Assembly (NCBI GenBank): GCA_947472795.1
Contig: CANJBL010000019.1
Location: 1-49,057 of the forward strand
DNA from: Fidelibacterota bacterium
GTDB lineage: Bacteria > Pseudomonadota > Alphaproteobacteria > Rhodospirillales > Rhodospirillaceae
Length of the DNA stretch: 49,057 nt
Direction of reading: 5' to 3'
Shown here: one piece after another, positions 27,980-34,177 of the stretch
Layout of the letters: every line of letters starts with the position of its first letter
Position numbering within the stretch: position 1 is the stretch's first letter
Made by a program: the position numbers and the translations under genes
The notes under the pieces: generated by a model
What the model was told of the DNA's origin: nothing
The model's database searches: none
The model's input: only the letters and a program-made list of their open reading frames with translations

Positions 27980-30892
27980 TTACTTCCTCTCCGCCAGCAC
28001 AGCCTGAGCCGCCGCGAGGCGTGCCACAGGCACGCGGTAGGGTGAGCACGAGACGTAATCGAGTCCGACTTTATGGAAGAACGTGATGGAATCCGGATCA
28101 CCACCATGTTCACCGCACACGCCCATCTTCATGCCTTTGCGCTGAGCCCTGCCCCGCTCAACGGCGGTTGAAATGAGCTCGCCGACGCCGTCCTGGTCGA
28201 GGCTGGCGAACGGGTCTTTCGCGTAGATGCCCTTGGAGCGATAGATCTCGATGAGGTTGGCGCAATCGTCGCGGGAGAGTCCGAGAGTCGTCTGCGTGAG
28301 GTCGTTGGTGCCGAAGGAGAAGAAGCCAGCGGTTTTTGCGATATCGCCGGCCTGGAGCGCGGCGCGCGGCAGCTCGATCATGGTGCCGACGATGTATGGA
28401 ATAGTGGTGCCGGCAGCCGTGAAAACAGAGAGTGCGGTTTCGTCCACCACTTTCTTCATCATGTCGAGTTCGGCGCGGGTGCCAACAAGCGGGATCATAA
28501 TTTCCGGCGCCACAGTCTTGCCGACCTTCATGACAGCGACAGCCGCCTCAAAAATGGCGCGCGCCTGCATCTCGTAAATCTCGGGATGCGATATACCTAA
28601 GCGAACGCCACGATGGCCCAGCATGGGATTGGTCTCATGCAGACGCACCAGCGCTTCGCGCACGGATTCAACAGACACGCCGGCCCCTGTGGCCACCTCT
28701 GCAATCTCGGCCTCGGTGTGAGGCAGGAATTCATGCAGCGGAGGGTCCAGCAGGCGGATCGTGACGGGCAAACCCTCCATAATGGTGAAGAGTTTGACGA
28801 AGTCGCCGCGCTGGAAGGGCAGCAGACGATCCAGCGCCGCTTTGCGCCCGCCTGTGTCCTTGGCAAGGATCATCTGGCGTACTGAAAGGATGCGCTGCGG
28901 ATCGAAGAACATATGCTCGGTGCGGCAGAGGCCAATTCCCTCTGCGCCAAATTTGCGGGCGGTTTCCGCATCCAGCGCGGTCTCGGCGTTGGCGCGCACT
29001 TTCAGGCGACGAATTTTATCAACCCAGCCCATGAGGATGGCGAAATCGCCAGTGAGTTCCGGCTGAATGGTGGCGACTTTTCCCAAGAAAATCTCGCCTG
29101 TGGCGCCATCGAGGGTGATGATGTCGCCTTCCAGCAAAATCTTGTCGCGCACGCGGGCCGTCTTTCCCTTGGTATCGACGTTGATATCGCCGGCTCCGCA
29201 GATGCACGGCGTGCCCATGCCGCGCGCCACTACAGCCGCATGACTGGTCATGCCGCCGCGTGTGGTGAGGATGCCTTGGGAAACATGCATGCCGCCAATG
29301 TCTTCGGGGCTGGTCTCGCGGCGGACAAGGATAACCTTCTCTCCGCGCTTCACCCAGTCCTCCGCGTCCTCGGCGGTGAAGACGATGCGGCCCGAAGCCG
29401 CACCCGGCGATGCGGGTAACCCGCGCGCGAGCAAGGTACGCTGGGCCTTGAGGTCCAACGTGGGATGCAGAAGCTGGTCGAGTTGGGCCGGGTCGATACG
29501 GCGCACGGCTTCTTCTTCGGTGATGAGACCTTCGCGCGCCATATCGACGGCGATCTTGAAACCGGCCTGGGCCGTGCGTTTGCCGCTGCGAGTCTGTAGC
29601 ATCCAGAGCTTGCTCTTCTGGATAGTGAACTCCATGTCCTGCATATCGGCGTAGTGGCGCTCCAAGCGATCCCGCGTTTCCACAAGTTCCTTGAACAACA
29701 CCGGCATGGCCTCTTCCATGGCGGGCAGATTTGAGTTCTGCGCTTTCTTGCCGGCCAGCGTGATCTGCTGCGGCGTGCGAATGCCGGCCACGACATCCTC
29801 GCCCTGTGCATTCACCAGATATTCGCCGTAGAAGACATTCTCGCCGGTGGACGGATCGCGGGAGAAGCAAACGCCGGTGGCGCAGTCTTCGCCCATATTG
29901 CCGAAGACCATGGACTGGATGTTAACGGCGGTGCCCCAACCGTCAGGAATGTCGTGTAGCTTGCGATACGTGATGGCGCGCTGGTTCATCCAGCTGCCGA
30001 AAACGGCGCCGATGGCGCCCCAGAGCTGCTCGTGCACATCTTGCGGGAACGGATGCTTCAGTTGTTCCTCGACGCGTTTTTTATAAGCGGCGACAAGGCC
30101 TTTCAAATCATCGGCGGTCAGGGCTGTGTCGAGCTTGACGCCTTTGTCGTCCTTCACGATGTCCAGCAGTTCCTCGAAGTCGTAGTGGTCCATCTCGAGG
30201 ACCACGCTCGAGTACATCTGAATGAAACGCCGGTAGCTGTCGTAAGCAAAGCGCGCATCGCCGGATTGTTTGGCCAAGCCTTCAACGGTCTCGTCATTGA
30301 GGCCCAGGTTCAGGATCGTATCCATCATCCCAGGCATGGAGGCGCGGGCCCCCGAACGCACGGAAACCAGCAGCGGCTGTTTCACGTCGCCGAATTTGGG
30401 CCCATCCAAAAGCGCCTCCACGTGGGCAATACCGCGCGCGGCCTGATCCTTCAGATCAGCCGGGTACTGCTTGCTGTTGGCGTAATAGTACGTGCAGACG
30501 TCGGTGGTGATGGTGAAGCCTGGCGGCACCGGCACACCAATGCTGCTCATTTCGGCGAGGTTCGCACCCTTGCCGCCAAGGAGGTCTTTCATGGTGACCT
30601 TACCTTCGGCCTTACCGGCACCGAAGGTATAGACCCACCTTTGAGGGCCGGCCGGGCTGGAGACGACAGTGGGTCCATCAGCGCCGGCCGGGTAGATATC
30701 GGGTCTCAATTCATGCCGGGTAACCTTGCCGCCGGTGGCCTGCTCTACCGCCAGGGCGCGCTCGGCAGGAACACGCTCCCACTGGCTGATAGCCTGAGGC
30801 GTGACATTGATGCTCCGGGCCAGGGCGACAGTGCCCCCAGCTTCGGTAATGGCACGTTCGAGGGCAGAATCGCGAGCGGAGGGTTCACGCAT
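27980..30892 (-). CDS. ppdK: Pyruvate phosphate dikinase with N-terminal helix-turn-helix domain
   Basis: 970 residues, about 80 longer than usual. Residues 10-68 form a Cro/YdaS-like HTH: LERAITEAGGTVALARSINV, TPQAISQWERVPAERALAVE, then VTRHELRPDIYP. The enzyme starts at about residue 85 (RWVYTFGAGKAEG): ATP-grasp domain (about 100-430, MKDLLGGKGANLAEM and SVRSGARASMPGMMDT), phosphohistidine domain with Thr549 and catalytic His551 in TTRGGMTSHAAVVARG, and the PEP/pyruvate barrel ending with Cys926 in GVCGEHGGDP. It interconverts pyruvate, ATP and Pi with PEP, AMP and PPi. ATG 30892 is preceded by AAAAGGTGAG and overlaps a repeat motif of the upstream region. No stop or frameshift separates HTH and enzyme. 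It follows glyS by 157 bases. The HTH suggests direct DNA binding, probably autoregulatory. Confidence 0.9.
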   Translation of the reverse strand: MREPSARDSALERAITEAGGTVALARSINVTPQAISQWERVPAERALAVEQATGGKVTRHELRPDIYPAGADGPTVVSSPAGPQRWVYTFGAGKAEGKVTMKDLLGGKGANLAEMSSIGVPVPPGFTITTDVCTYYYANSKQYPADLKDQAARGIAHVEALLDGPKFGDVKQPLLVSVRSGARASMPGMMDTILNLGLNDETVEGLAKQSGDARFAYDSYRRFIQMYSSVVLEMDHYDFEELLDIVKDDKGVKLDTALTADDLKGLVAAYKKRVEEQLKHPFPQDVHEQLWGAIGAVFGSWMNQRAITYRKLHDIPDGWGTAVNIQSMVFGNMGEDCATGVCFSRDPSTGENVFYGEYLVNAQGEDVVAGIRTPQQITLAGKKAQNSNLPAMEEAMPVLFKELVETRDRLERHYADMQDMEFTIQKSKLWMLQTRSGKRTAQAGFKIAVDMAREGLITEEEAVRRIDPAQLDQLLHPTLDLKAQRTLLARGLPASPGAASGRIVFTAEDAEDWVKRGEKVILVRRETSPEDIGGMHVSQGILTTRGGMTSHAAVVARGMGTPCICGAGDINVDTKGKTARVRDKILLEGDIITLDGATGEIFLGKVATIQPELTGDFAILMGWVDKIRRLKVRANAETALDAETARKFGAEGIGLCRTEHMFFDPQRILSVRQMILAKDTGGRKAALDRLLPFQRGDFVKLFTIMEGLPVTIRLLDPPLHEFLPHTEAEIAEVATGAGVSVESVREALVRLHETNPMLGHRGVRLGISHPEIYEMQARAIFEAAVAVMKVGKTVAPEIMIPLVGTRAELDMMKKVVDETALSVFTAAGTTIPYIVGTMIELPRAALQAGDIAKTAGFFSFGTNDLTQTTLGLSRDDCANLIEIYRSKGIYAKDPFASLDQDGVGELISTAVERGRAQRKGMKMGVCGEHGGDPDSITFFHKVGLDYVSCSPYRVPVARLAAAQAVLAERK

Positions 30893-31043
30893 GTAAGTAA
30901 GCTCACCTTTTAAAGGTATGTAAGTAAGCTATTCTTGAATAATACGGCATTTACCCGCTTACAACCCCTAAAACTGGAAAAAGTTGCCACTACCGCCCTC
31001 AATTTAAAGACTACGGCTTACATTTTTCAAAATGTAAGTAAGC
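30891..31043. promoter_or_regulatory. Cluster of GTAAG/CTTAC motifs upstream of ppdK
   Basis: The 157 bp between glyS and ppdK is AT-rich and holds three copies of ATGTAAGTAAGC (30891-30902, 30918-30929, 31032-31043). It also has GCTTAC at 30957-30962 and 31016-31021. Copies one and two are spaced 27 bases apart, and copy one overlaps the ppdK start codon. Between them lies ACCTTTTAAAGGT, a small palindrome containing the probable ribosome binding site. Repeated sites across promoter, leader and start codon are typical of a repressor operator array. The HTH domain fused to PPDK is the natural candidate to bind it. Confidence 0.6.
31017..31038. repeat. 22 bp palindrome in the ppdK upstream region
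   Basis: CTTACATTTT-TC-AAAATGTAAG is a perfect inverted repeat with 10-base arms and a 2-base centre, 125-146 bases upstream of the ppdK start and just after the glyS stop (31050). Its outer half-sites are the same CTTAC/GTAAG word as in the other copies. No T-run follows on the minus strand, so an operator is more likely than a terminator. Confidence 0.6.
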
Positions 31044-31049
31044 GCAGCC

Positions 31050-33122
31050 CTAGCTTTCGACTTTTGAGAAGTCGGCCACCCGGTTCATGGCCCCCTCGAT
31101 CCGAGACAGCAGCTTGAGGCGCGCGGCACGCTGGGCCGGGTCGTCGGCATTGACTTTCACCTTGTCAAAGAAGGTATCCACGGGCTGACGGAGACCCGCC
31201 AGGACGGTCATAGCCCCCCTGTAGTCCTCTTTGACCAGCAAGGGGGTCATGGCGTCTTCGGCTTTAGCGAGAGCCGCCAGAAGAGCTGTGGCCTCGGGGG
31301 CGCCGAGGTGATCGGCTGGAACGTCACCCTTATAGCTGGAACCGTCCTTCTTCTCCTCGATGCGCACGATATTGGCCGCCCGGCGATAAGCCACCAGCAG
31401 GTTGGCACCGTCGTCGCTGGTGACAAAAGCAGCCAAGGCTTCGACCCTGGCCATGAGGCGCACGAGATCGTCCTCATCTCCCAGCGCAAAGACCGCTGAG
31501 ATAAGGTCGTGACGCACGCCTTTATCGCGCAAATGCGCCTTCAGCCGATCGGCAAAGAACTCCAGCACTTCGCGCCCGATCTTATCGCGCGTGCCGTCGG
31601 CCACGAGACCGTTGTAACAGCCAAGGGCATATTCGAAGGCCGCCAGCAGCGGCAGACGCAGCTTGTTCTCCAGGATGATGCGAATGACACCGAGAGCGGC
31701 ACGGCGCAGCGCGTACGGGTCCTTGGAGCCCGTGGGCTTTTCGTTGATGGCGAAGAAGCCCACGAGACTGTCGATCTTGTCCGCCAATGACACAGCGATG
31801 CTGAGCGGCGCACTGGGGCAAGAATCATTGGGACCCAGCGGTGAATAGTGTTCGGCAATGGCATTGGCCACGTCCGCCTTCTCGCCCTGATGCAGCGCGT
31901 AGTAACGGCCCATAATGCCCTGGAGATCGGGGAACTCGCCGACCATTTCCGCAGACAGGTCGGCTTTGGCGAGTAAAGCCGCGCGTTTGGCGGCATCAGC
32001 ATCGGCGCCAACGGGTTTGGCAAGGTACATGGCCAGCGCCGCCATGCGGTCGACCTTGGCGCGCATGGTGCCGAGCTTTGCCTGGAAGATGCGTTCTTCC
32101 AGTTTCGGCAGGCGGGCATCGAGGGTCTTCTTCTTGTCCTGATCCCAGAAGAACTTGGCGTCGGAGAGGCGCGGACGCAGTACCTTCTCGTTGCCGGCGA
32201 TGATCGCCTTGCCTTTGTCCTTGGTGACCATATTGGCGACAACGCCGAAACGATTGGCGAGCTTGCCGTCTTTGGTCTGCAGCGAGAAATACTTCTGGTG
32301 TTTGCGCATGGCCGAGGTCAGCACCTCGCCCGGCAGTTCCATATAGGCCGCATCGATTGTGCCAAGCAGCGGCACGGGCCATTCGACAAGCCCAGTGACT
32401 TCCGCGAGAAGCGCCGGATCGTCTTTCACGGCAAGCCCTTCGGCGGCAGCAAGCTTGGTAAGTTCACGCGCGATAATGTCGCTGCGTTCAGTGGCATCCA
32501 CCAGCACGTAAGCTTTTTTGAGCTTGGCCTTGTAGTCGGTGAAGTTTTTCACACTGATGAAAGCCGGCGCCAGGAAACGGTGGCCACGCGTGGTAGTTGT
32601 TCCAGTTACACCACCGAACGAAACGGGCACGACAGCGCCGTTGAAGACGCAAACAATTCCATGCAACGGACGCACCCAGCGCGTCGGGTTCTCGGCCCAG
32701 CGCATGGATTTGGGCCAGGGAAATTGCGCCAGCGCGGCTTCGACGATGTCCTTCAACACATCGGCCGTGGCGCGGCCCGGCTTCTTGGTGACAGCAAAAT
32801 AGAATGTGCCTTTCGGCATTTCGCGCTTTTCAGCCTCGTCCAGGTTCTTGAGGCCAGCAGCTTTGAGAAAGCCCTGTACGGCCTGATCGGGCGCGCCGAC
32901 TTGTGGCCCTTTACGCTCTTCGGTGGTATCGGGCTGAGAGGTCGGCAAGCCAGCGGCGCTGAGCACGACGCGGCGTGGGCCGGCGGCAGTTTCCAAGGAC
33001 TTGGCTTCGATGCCGTTGGTCTTCAGCGCGTCGCCAATGAGGCGCGCGAGGTCAGCGGCGGCCTGCTTCTGCATGCGGGCCGGGATTTCTTCGGAGAAGA
33101 TCTCAAGTAGGAGCTCGGCCAT
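31050..33122 (-). CDS. glyS: Glycyl-tRNA synthetase beta subunit
   Basis: 690 residues from ATG 33122 (MAELLLEIFSEEIPARMQKQ). This is the tetrameric, two-gene type glycyl-tRNA synthetase, where the beta chain carries tRNA-binding and HD-like domains and the alpha chain the catalytic core. Family segments are LLEIFSEEIPARM, PKSMRWAENPTRWVRPLHG, EVTGLVEWPVPLLGTIDAAY, LRPRLSDAKFFWDQDKK and a C-terminal anticodon-binding region (FFDKVKVNADDPAQRAARLK). The gene starts two bases after the glyQ stop, so the subunits are made together. The length is normal. Confidence 0.95.
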   Translation of the reverse strand: MAELLLEIFSEEIPARMQKQAAADLARLIGDALKTNGIEAKSLETAAGPRRVVLSAAGLPTSQPDTTEERKGPQVGAPDQAVQGFLKAAGLKNLDEAEKREMPKGTFYFAVTKKPGRATADVLKDIVEAALAQFPWPKSMRWAENPTRWVRPLHGIVCVFNGAVVPVSFGGVTGTTTTRGHRFLAPAFISVKNFTDYKAKLKKAYVLVDATERSDIIARELTKLAAAEGLAVKDDPALLAEVTGLVEWPVPLLGTIDAAYMELPGEVLTSAMRKHQKYFSLQTKDGKLANRFGVVANMVTKDKGKAIIAGNEKVLRPRLSDAKFFWDQDKKKTLDARLPKLEERIFQAKLGTMRAKVDRMAALAMYLAKPVGADADAAKRAALLAKADLSAEMVGEFPDLQGIMGRYYALHQGEKADVANAIAEHYSPLGPNDSCPSAPLSIAVSLADKIDSLVGFFAINEKPTGSKDPYALRRAALGVIRIILENKLRLPLLAAFEYALGCYNGLVADGTRDKIGREVLEFFADRLKAHLRDKGVRHDLISAVFALGDEDDLVRLMARVEALAAFVTSDDGANLLVAYRRAANIVRIEEKKDGSSYKGDVPADHLGAPEATALLAALAKAEDAMTPLLVKEDYRGAMTVLAGLRQPVDTFFDKVKVNADDPAQRAARLKLLSRIEGAMNRVADFSKVES

Positions 33123-33124
33123 GA

Positions 33125-34177
33125 TCAAGCTCCTTTCATGGTGGTGGGGGCAAGCCAGGCTTCGCAACATTGCTTGGCCAGCGCACGCACACGCCCAATG
33201 TAGGCCGCACGCTCGGTAACACTAATGACACCTCGCGCATCCAGCAGATTGAAGGTGTGCGAAGCCTTGATGCACTGATCATAGGCGGGCTGAGCAAGTT
33301 TAGCGGCCAGCAGCGCGGCGCATTCCTTCTCGCAAGCCTTGAAGCGCTCGAAGAGAATATCGGTGTCGGCGTGCTCGAAGTTATGAGCGGAATAATCCAC
33401 CTCGGCGCGGTGAAAGATATCGCCATAGGTCACGCCTCTGCCATTGAAGTCGAGGTCGTAAACGCTGTTCTTGCCCTGGATGTACATGGCGAGGCGCTCA
33501 AGGCCGTAGGTAAGTTCGACGGAGACAGGATTGCACTCGATGCCGCCGACCTGCTGGAAATAGGTGAACTGCGTTACTTCCATGCCGTCGCACCAGACTT
33601 CCCAACCCAGACCCCAGGCGCCGAGCGTGGGGCTTTCCCAATCGTCTTCGACGAAGCGGATATCGTGGGCCATGGGGTCGATGCCGATGGCCTTCAGACT
33701 CTCGAGGTAGAGCGCTTGTGCGTCAGCGGGGGATGGTTTGATGATCACCTGGAACTGATAGTAGTGCTGCAAGCGGTTTGGGTTCTCGCCGTAGCGGCCA
33801 TCCGTAGGACGGCGCGAAGGCTGCACGTAGGCCGCGGCCCAAGGTTCCTTCCCCAAGGCACGCAACGTGGTGGCTGGATGGAAGGTGCCGGCGCCCATTT
33901 CCATGTCATAGGGCTGCAGGATAACGCAGCCCTGGTCGGCCCAAAATTTCTGCAGTGTGAGAATCAGGTTCTGGAAGCTGAGTGGTACACCGCGCGCTTT
34001 CTCGATCACGGGCTTCGCGGCTACGGTTTTTGCGACCGCCTTGGGTTTGGCTTTTACTTTGACCTTCGGCGCAGGCTTCTTGGTAGGCTTCCGGACAGCT
34101 TTCCGGACAGCCTTTTTGACCGGCTTCTTGGCCATTTTTTTGGGCTGTTTCTTGGGGGATTTTTTCTTGGAAGCCAT
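33125..34177 (-). CDS. glyQ: Glycyl-tRNA synthetase alpha subunit with basic N-terminal tail
   Basis: 350 residues; the catalytic part starts near residue 66 ([18 protein letters not shown]) and has the class II motifs: [73 protein letters not shown] and [12 protein letters not shown]. Typical GlyQ is about 300 residues. The extra N-terminal 64 are almost only Lys, Pro, Ala, Arg and Val ([30 protein letters not shown]), like a histone H1-type tail. The start is weakly supported by a ribosome binding site, but no other start lies between the tail and the core. It charges tRNA-Gly with GlyS. Confidence 0.9.

Follow-up and report, generated by a model that had tools for sequence, protein, structure and literature searches.

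The window studied here, a stretch of 49,057 nucleotides (assembly GCA_947472795.1, contig CANJBL010000019.1, positions 1 to 49,057) from a genome placed by GTDB in the Rhodospirillaceae, carries on its minus strand at 27980-30892 an open reading frame (ORF) of 970 amino acids that starts with ATG and has no internal stop. Judged by its sequence, the ORF encodes a complete pyruvate phosphate dikinase (PPDK) joined to an N-terminal YdaS/Cro-type helix-turn-helix (HTH) domain: the HTH covers residues 11-68 (30689..30862), a disordered and neutrally evolving linker residues 69-84 (30641..30688), and the enzyme residues 85-970 plus the stop codon (27980..30640), all on the minus strand. A putative operator array (30893..31042) precedes the start codon. 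An earlier note on this DNA, made from the letters alone, had described a PPDK fused to a Cro/YdaS-like domain, with the enzyme beginning near residue 85 and no stop or frameshift, and had proposed a trigger enzyme able to couple carbon flux to transcription; the fusion, the boundary and the open frame were all borne out.

The fused protein and its distribution

The NCBIfam PPDK model TIGR01828 spans residues 85-965 across its whole length (1366 bits against a curated cut-off of 843), and PPDK structures in the PDB match residues 85-967 (E 0). The motif GGMTSHA is kept around H551, which we take to be the phosphohistidine, and G546-A552 are invariant in 49 aligned PPDKs. At the N-terminus, where the earlier note had suggested a domain search, two Pfam families score above their curated cut-offs: YdaS_toxin (PF15943) at residues 11-68, with 76.6 bits (E 1.3e-21) in the whole protein and 79.7 bits (E 1.4e-22) in the N-terminal 84 residues alone against a gathering cut-off of 30, and P22_Cro (PF14549) at residues 13-60 (E 3.1e-13). 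The name "toxin" of PF15943 looks historical; the family member YdaS of prophage CP-933P is described as a Cro equivalent in two reports (PMC8630535, PMC9986795). Against the carph-isopro model (NF046037) the domain scores 29.8 bits, below the cut-off of 38, and by this measure it is a relative and non-member of that family.

The domain also matches the Xfaso 1 Cro structure 3bd1 in sequence (E 1.4e-9). Its AlphaFold model (predicted local distance difference test, pLDDT, 80) has five helices, and a fold search returned 3bd1 as the sole PDB entry at E ≤ 0.001 (template modelling score 0.70), followed at E 0.06-0.11 by DNA-bound N15 Cro (6on0), CP-933P YdaS (8c7k) and P22 Cro (1rzs). In the full-length model (pLDDT 85), residues 69-82 are disordered, with pLDDT < 50.

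Complete fused copies from 33 genomes were compared, three further ones (G005, G051 and G055) being cut by contig ends and left out. The recognition helix lies at about residues 30-38, VTPQAISQW in the window, and only its positions 32 (P/S) and 35 (I/V) vary among the 33, so the degenerate helix that the earlier note had named as grounds for refutation is not what was found; T31, Q33, A34, S36 and Q37, the residues expected to face DNA, are unchanged in every copy. The ratio of nonsynonymous to synonymous substitution rates (dN/dS), obtained from Nei-Gojobori counts over the 528 pairs of these genes and summarized as medians of pairs with dS 0.1-1.2, was 0.093 in the HTH (86 pairs), 0.132 in the enzyme (191 pairs) and 1.44 in the linker (147 pairs). 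The HTH domain is thus under stronger purifying selection than the enzyme, and by sequence and model it appears to be a conserved, non-degenerate Cro/YdaS-type DNA-binding domain. The stretch between LRPD and VYxFG, which holds the linker, is 16-40 residues long in the 32 of 33 genomes where this pattern was found.

An internal translation start near residue 85 was rejected, as no conserved start codon exists there. Within residues 66-100, scanned in the alignment columns present in the window protein, GTG or TTG occurs at scattered places in 10 of 33 genomes, never in the window, and only two of 33 have one at residues 82-84. Codon 101 is ATG in 32 of 33 genomes, yet it falls within the enzyme fold, and conservation of M101 reaches at least 90% among the 49 fused and unfused PPDKs. 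Chance or an annotation artefact was likewise rejected, given 33 complete copies and the selection on the domain.

PF15943 was found above its cut-off in 37 of the 73 family genomes, 36 times within PPDK and once (G052) as a separate protein of 98 amino acids; recurrence in 36 related genomes, which the earlier note had proposed looking for, speaks against an assembly accident. The fused domain is the sole PF15943 match in the window's genome. All 99 relatives searched gave matches to the query, some of them related phosphoenolpyruvate (PEP) enzymes or fragments, and only a subset of their PPDKs align from residue 1-7 onward; the unfused relatives examined have neither the N-terminal HTH nor the operator array. 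A quick tree was built from 58 enzyme parts, of which 33 came from fused proteins, 21 from unfused ones of the family or order, and four from others. In it the fused proteins all stand on one side of one branch (Shimodaira-Hasegawa-like approximate likelihood-ratio support 100), most simply explained by a single origin and vertical inheritance thereafter; the exact place of the divergent G040 is unsure because of its long branch and odd composition. A plasmid search with the first 151 residues showed no fused copy, none of 74 records covering 80% of the query. The named relatives are genomes from metagenomes, with Rhodospirillaceae, Proteobacteria or uncultured bacterium as their labels; other labels look wrong, such as Marinimicrobia or Caenispirillum bisanense on three loci (L061, L073, L098) whose gene is 82-85% identical to that of the window.

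Predicted operators and the recognition helix

The leader of the fused ppdK holds the window's only cluster of the word CTTAC or its reverse complement GTAAG, with eight words in the 150 bp ahead of the start codon (at 30893, 30897, 30920, 30924, 30958, 31017, 31034 and 31038). In the alignment of 33 leaders, so far as listed, such words recur amid otherwise poorly conserved sequence, and their positions differ between genera despite the kinship of the genomes. Over 200 bp, the fused leaders contain 189 words against 14.3 expected from dinucleotide shuffles; each leader has at least three, and in 30 of 33 the observed number was reached by none of 200 shuffles. Unfused ppdK leaders from the same family (20) and order (one, G062) have, in contrast, no words against 5.5 expected from mononucleotide shuffles, and a wider unfused set of 61 loci has nine against 9.8, i.e., no excess (61 of 64 eligible loci, as L075, L083 and L108 had no start codon or too short a leader; L030 belongs to both unfused sets). 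The gene upstream in the window (31050..33170, minus strand) was named by eye from the ORF list as the glycyl-tRNA synthetase beta chain, glyS, and the C-terminal end of glyS was found by tblastn within 700 bp upstream of the fused ppdK in 19 of 33 genomes. Because the upstream gene thus differs among genomes, the array belongs with ppdK and not with its neighbour.

The average over all sites gives a longer word, about GCTTACAT, preceded by AAG. The combination AAG-N5-CTTAC occurs 53 times and at least once in 27 of 33 fused leaders, other gaps occurring 1-12 times with the exception of gap 10 (23 times); we read it as a predicted dyad operator whose halves are unequal, one strong and the other weak. 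The half-site consensus of P22 Cro had first suggested a Cro-like operator. In the window, one putative operator of this form adjoins the start codon (30897..30909, minus strand) and another (30924..30936, minus strand) lies directly downstream of the -10 element of a putative promoter, TTGTAAG-N16-TATT (30938..30964, minus strand), in which an operator word falls within the -35 element. As a regular expression, TTGTAAG-N15-17-TATT, with the word in the -35, matches nine of 33 fused leaders, the window's included; a sigma-70 scan missed this putative promoter and gave one other weak site (31030-31001). Some 90-126 bases ahead of the ppdK start, two leaders (L002, L003) have strong hairpins that by eye resemble terminators, and since GTAAG/CTTAC sit at the hairpin base, operator words and hairpins overlap there.

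The word scan was extended to 39% of the window's genome, or 1,249,057 bases out of 3.22 Mb, in which 976 words were counted. Within this 1.25 Mb, only the ppdK leader has more than three words per 120 bp, and elsewhere there are six three-word clusters against about four expected by our own estimate, so that a regulon beyond ppdK is not supported there.

The link between helix and site was examined in other YdaS proteins by searching the roughly 330 bp ahead of 51 further YdaS domains for the exact GTAAG-N5-CTTAC; 40 of the domains had been fetched blind and 11 came from earlier work (L150 and L155, among the latter, had already been seen by eye). The site precedes all four domains with the helix QAISQW (L150, L224, L226, L235), as well as L155 with the helix QAVYQW, and none of the other 46. 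Of the 40 fetched blind, three have QAISQW, and these same three alone have the site, for which our own arithmetic gives a chance of 1 in 9880. A further 14 domains, from reductase-like and TorD-like fusions without QAISQW, have no exact site, and overall, with 12 phage and plasmid relatives included, the site is present in 4/4 domains with QAISQW and 1/73 without; the viral L295 (QAVSQW) was kept out of these counts, having been found by its site. Separate YdaS proteins with the same helix thus have the site upstream of their own genes. L155 (523-2286) is a fusion of YdaS to an NAD(P)H-hydrate epimerase/dehydratase, and its site, GTAAGCATAACTTAC, is the full form of the PPDK site.

Proposed autoregulation and its rivals

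The fused PPDK is probably a trigger enzyme, because a real, conserved and non-degenerate Cro/YdaS domain sits on a complete PPDK, and it very probably controls its own production, since an array of matching sites precedes its gene. Sequence comparison supplies the fusion, its restriction to one clade, selective constraint on the HTH, an array that co-occurs with the fusion, and the helix/operator match in unrelated YdaS proteins, and these point to a single-target trigger enzyme that negatively autoregulates its own gene, a reading to which we give a probability of about 0.8. PPDK would have gained its N-terminal Cro/YdaS domain, apparently once, in the ancestor of an alphaproteobacterial group. 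PPDK is a dimer, and the fused enzyme, probably dimeric too, would bring two HTH domains on flexible linkers to the pseudo-palindromic AAG-N5-CTTAC, of which GTAAG-N5-CTTAC would be the full operator form, with at least three operator words in the leader of its own gene. Accumulating protein would occupy the operators, cover the promoter and the message start, and lower its own transcription. Binding by the fused protein itself, repression as its consequence and the dimer as the binding unit are our inferences. For CP-933P YdaS, electrophoretic mobility shift assay and DNase I footprint showed binding to the intergenic region that contains its own promoter (PMC8630535), which makes negative autoregulation by enzyme amount the simplest mechanism for the fused PPDK.

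Coupling of DNA binding to the catalytic state is another matter. Allosteric gating by PEP, pyruvate or adenosine monophosphate has no sequence support, given a neutrally evolving linker of variable length, and this neutrality also speaks against a tight link to substrate or catalytic state. We considered whether the fusion replaces the regulatory protein already known for PPDK, and rejected this: the kinase/phosphatase-type regulator PF03618 is retained by the window's genome and by 33 of 35 fused genomes checked for it (G005 and G026 lack it, and G051 has only a fragment), as well as by 67 of 72 family genomes checked overall; since it is retained, the fusion adds a layer of control.

Several observations weigh against autoregulation through these sites. 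Six of 33 fused leaders have words only, without any AAG-N5-CTTAC, perfect GTAAG-N5-CTTAC occurs in just two of 33, most sites having one weak half, and the promoter pattern fits no more than nine of the leaders. The word counts are not independent, because the 33 genomes are related. Among the other YdaS proteins, L224 and L226 belong to a single family, and the exact site is absent from L168 (QAVNQW) and from all 12 phage and plasmid relatives, none of which has QAISQW; two of these 12, L304 (QAVSQW) and L301 (QAICQW), have GAAAG-N5-CTT instead, by eye. In viral contigs, the exact 15-mer GTAAGCATAACTTAC adjoins a YdaS-type helix in only one of 51 cases (0 of 104 control windows). Lastly, CP-933P YdaS represses the neighbouring PRM promoter more strongly, its own promoter being repressed more by PaaR2 (PMC8630535).

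Of the same kind is the folding of the leaders as RNA, which exceeds that of shuffles (mean z -2.74, or -1.94 with words kept) and stays at -1.68 with the 9-base sites kept over 150 bases, against -0.24 for a coding control. The words might therefore act in RNA, GTAAG pairing with CTTAC in alternative hairpins of the leader and so controlling translation or termination; z is below -2 in 20 of 33 leaders, and in 13 of 33 with either words or 9-base sites kept, and several leaders have long hairpins resembling, by eye, terminators of the preceding gene. Such a role is nonetheless improbable in our view: the words are conserved letter for letter, the stem formed by AAG-N5-CTTAC has only three pairs, the mean z is -1.05 when the last 100 bases are folded with the 9-base sites kept, the window's own leader reaches only -0.7, and RNA pairing does not predict the match with the YdaS helix type. 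Quite improbable, too, is that the CTTAC array serves another HTH regulator while the fused HTH has a different function. The genome must encode other HTH proteins, and binding by the fused HTH is a prediction; against this, the array follows the fusion (at least three words in every fused leader, none in the 21 unfused leaders), unrelated QAISQW proteins have the identical site before their own genes, and the window's genome has no second YdaS match.

Two other possibilities concern the reach of the HTH and its purpose. The earlier note's trigger enzyme stands as probable, on the strength of a conserved HTH on a complete PPDK; its broader idea, a general coupling of flux to transcription, does not fare as well, and a global regulon tying the PEP/pyruvate balance to other genes is very unlikely, since the scan, which covered 39% of the genome, met no other cluster of more than three words, and six three-word clusters against the four or so that we expected. 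Least credible to us is a domain that serves only for dimerization or as a scaffold, as maybe in HppE-like enzymes, and binds no DNA. The HTH-enzyme folds HppE and MPnS do appear in the fold search of the HTH model, weakly (E 0.7 and above), and neither is known to bind DNA, which counts against autoregulation. The expected DNA-facing residues are nevertheless unchanged in all 33 copies, the operators co-occur with the fusion, and no tight HTH-enzyme interface is suggested, because the linker is disordered and neutral.

Parallel fusions and known systems

PF15943 and NF046037 were searched more widely, part of the ORFs found was examined, and the ten main parts were named by Pfam. About ten other proteins, mainly enzymes, carry in-frame N-terminal domains of the same kind. 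The HTH is above its Pfam cut-off on L141 (ketopantoate reductase-like), L146 (RraA-like), L155, L157 (5-enolpyruvylshikimate-3-phosphate-synthase family, which we read as MurA-like) and L158 (a nitrate-reductase-delta/TorD-like chaperone, with a Bradyrhizobium relative named TorD family in PLSDB). On L173 (CarA), L177 (SerA-like) and L178 (PyrB-like) the NF046037 cut-off is the only one that it exceeds, and on L176 (ArgB-like) it does so only with its neighbours in the frame; on L175 (HisZ-like) it is below both cut-offs. Carph-isopro-like domains were also seen on proteins that by eye are mitofilin-like membrane proteins (L169-L172, L174), where DNA binding would be odd.

Two of these groups, the ketopantoate-reductase-like and TorD-like fusions, appear from their leaders to have predicted operators of their own: TACA-N8-TGTA is found in all five ketopantoate-reductase-like leaders (shuffle maximum 2), which are not independent, L141 and L143 being close copies by eye, and ATAG-N7-CTAT in seven of ten TorD-like leaders (shuffle maximum 3). 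The former (L141-L145, genus g63, family f27) have dyads of the CCTACAA/TTGTAGG type before the start codon; the latter comprise L156, L158-L166 and L305, with ATAG-N7-CTAT in the leaders of L160-L166, and L305 adjoins a formate dehydrogenase gene. For single copies, an inverted-repeat test of 11 leaders with 100 shuffles each was mixed. Arms as long as the observed ones were reached by none of the shuffles for L155 (with a repeat distinct from its operator) and L147 (a separate protein), by four for L173 and L178, and by 15-26 for L146, L157 and L175; the leaders of L176, L177, L149 and L150 had no inverted repeats of at least 6 bases. Slightly favoured, on these patterns, is the idea that alphaproteobacteria repeatedly captured phage Cro-type or related HTH domains on metabolic proteins, yielding single-target self-repressors whose operators can be read from the helix, some of them perhaps gated by substrate. 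If so, the substrate-gated cases would be one-protein metabolite-responsive circuits.

In combining an enzyme and a DNA-binding regulator in one chain, the fused PPDK resembles PutA and other trigger enzymes of Escherichia coli, of which one report lists five (BirA, NadR, PepA, PutA and PyrH) and where PutA, a precedent for a single-target enzyme, acts at its own gene region, binding only the spacer between its gene and putP (PMC8249747). It differs from PutA in the enzyme and in having an HTH akin to phage Cro/YdaS instead of PutA's own DNA-binding domain, and from trigger enzymes generally in its array of many predicted sites and in having no known ligand switch. The repressors of lambdoid phages and prophages (PF15943, with Xfaso 1 Cro and CP-933P YdaS) share its domain family and fold, whereas the domain on PPDK is part of a housekeeping enzyme and has passed down within a single clade; for CP-933P YdaS, binding at its own promoter region has been demonstrated (PMC8630535). 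The carph-isopro proteins likewise have a related small HTH-like N-terminal domain on alphaproteobacterial enzymes (CarA, PyrB, SerA, HisZ-like, ArgB-like), under whose cut-off the window domain falls. To an ordinary alphaproteobacterial PPDK (TIGR01828), complete and with the same catalytic motif, the fused protein adds the N-terminal HTH and the operator array. Among open-licence PMC papers we found none on YdaS with PPDK, the carph-isopro domain or a YdaS-TorD fusion; two papers contain both of the latter names, but judged by title neither deals with such a fusion, and the further titles and abstract openings listed show nothing on the subject.

Trigger enzymes as such are already known, so far as a handful of unrelated cases, and a larger class of HTH-enzyme fusions behind the PPDK case is plausible. 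That about ten other proteins carry similar domains suggests a general route to self-controlling enzymes; if true, there would be a set of trigger enzymes built with one reusable part, a phage Cro-type domain, on many enzymes. Because readable operators go with the helix type, both a helix-to-DNA-site rule and the sensing of enzyme amount versus substrate at the promoter become testable. In such bacteria, annotations that amount to an enzyme with an extra 70 residues may hide transcription regulators.

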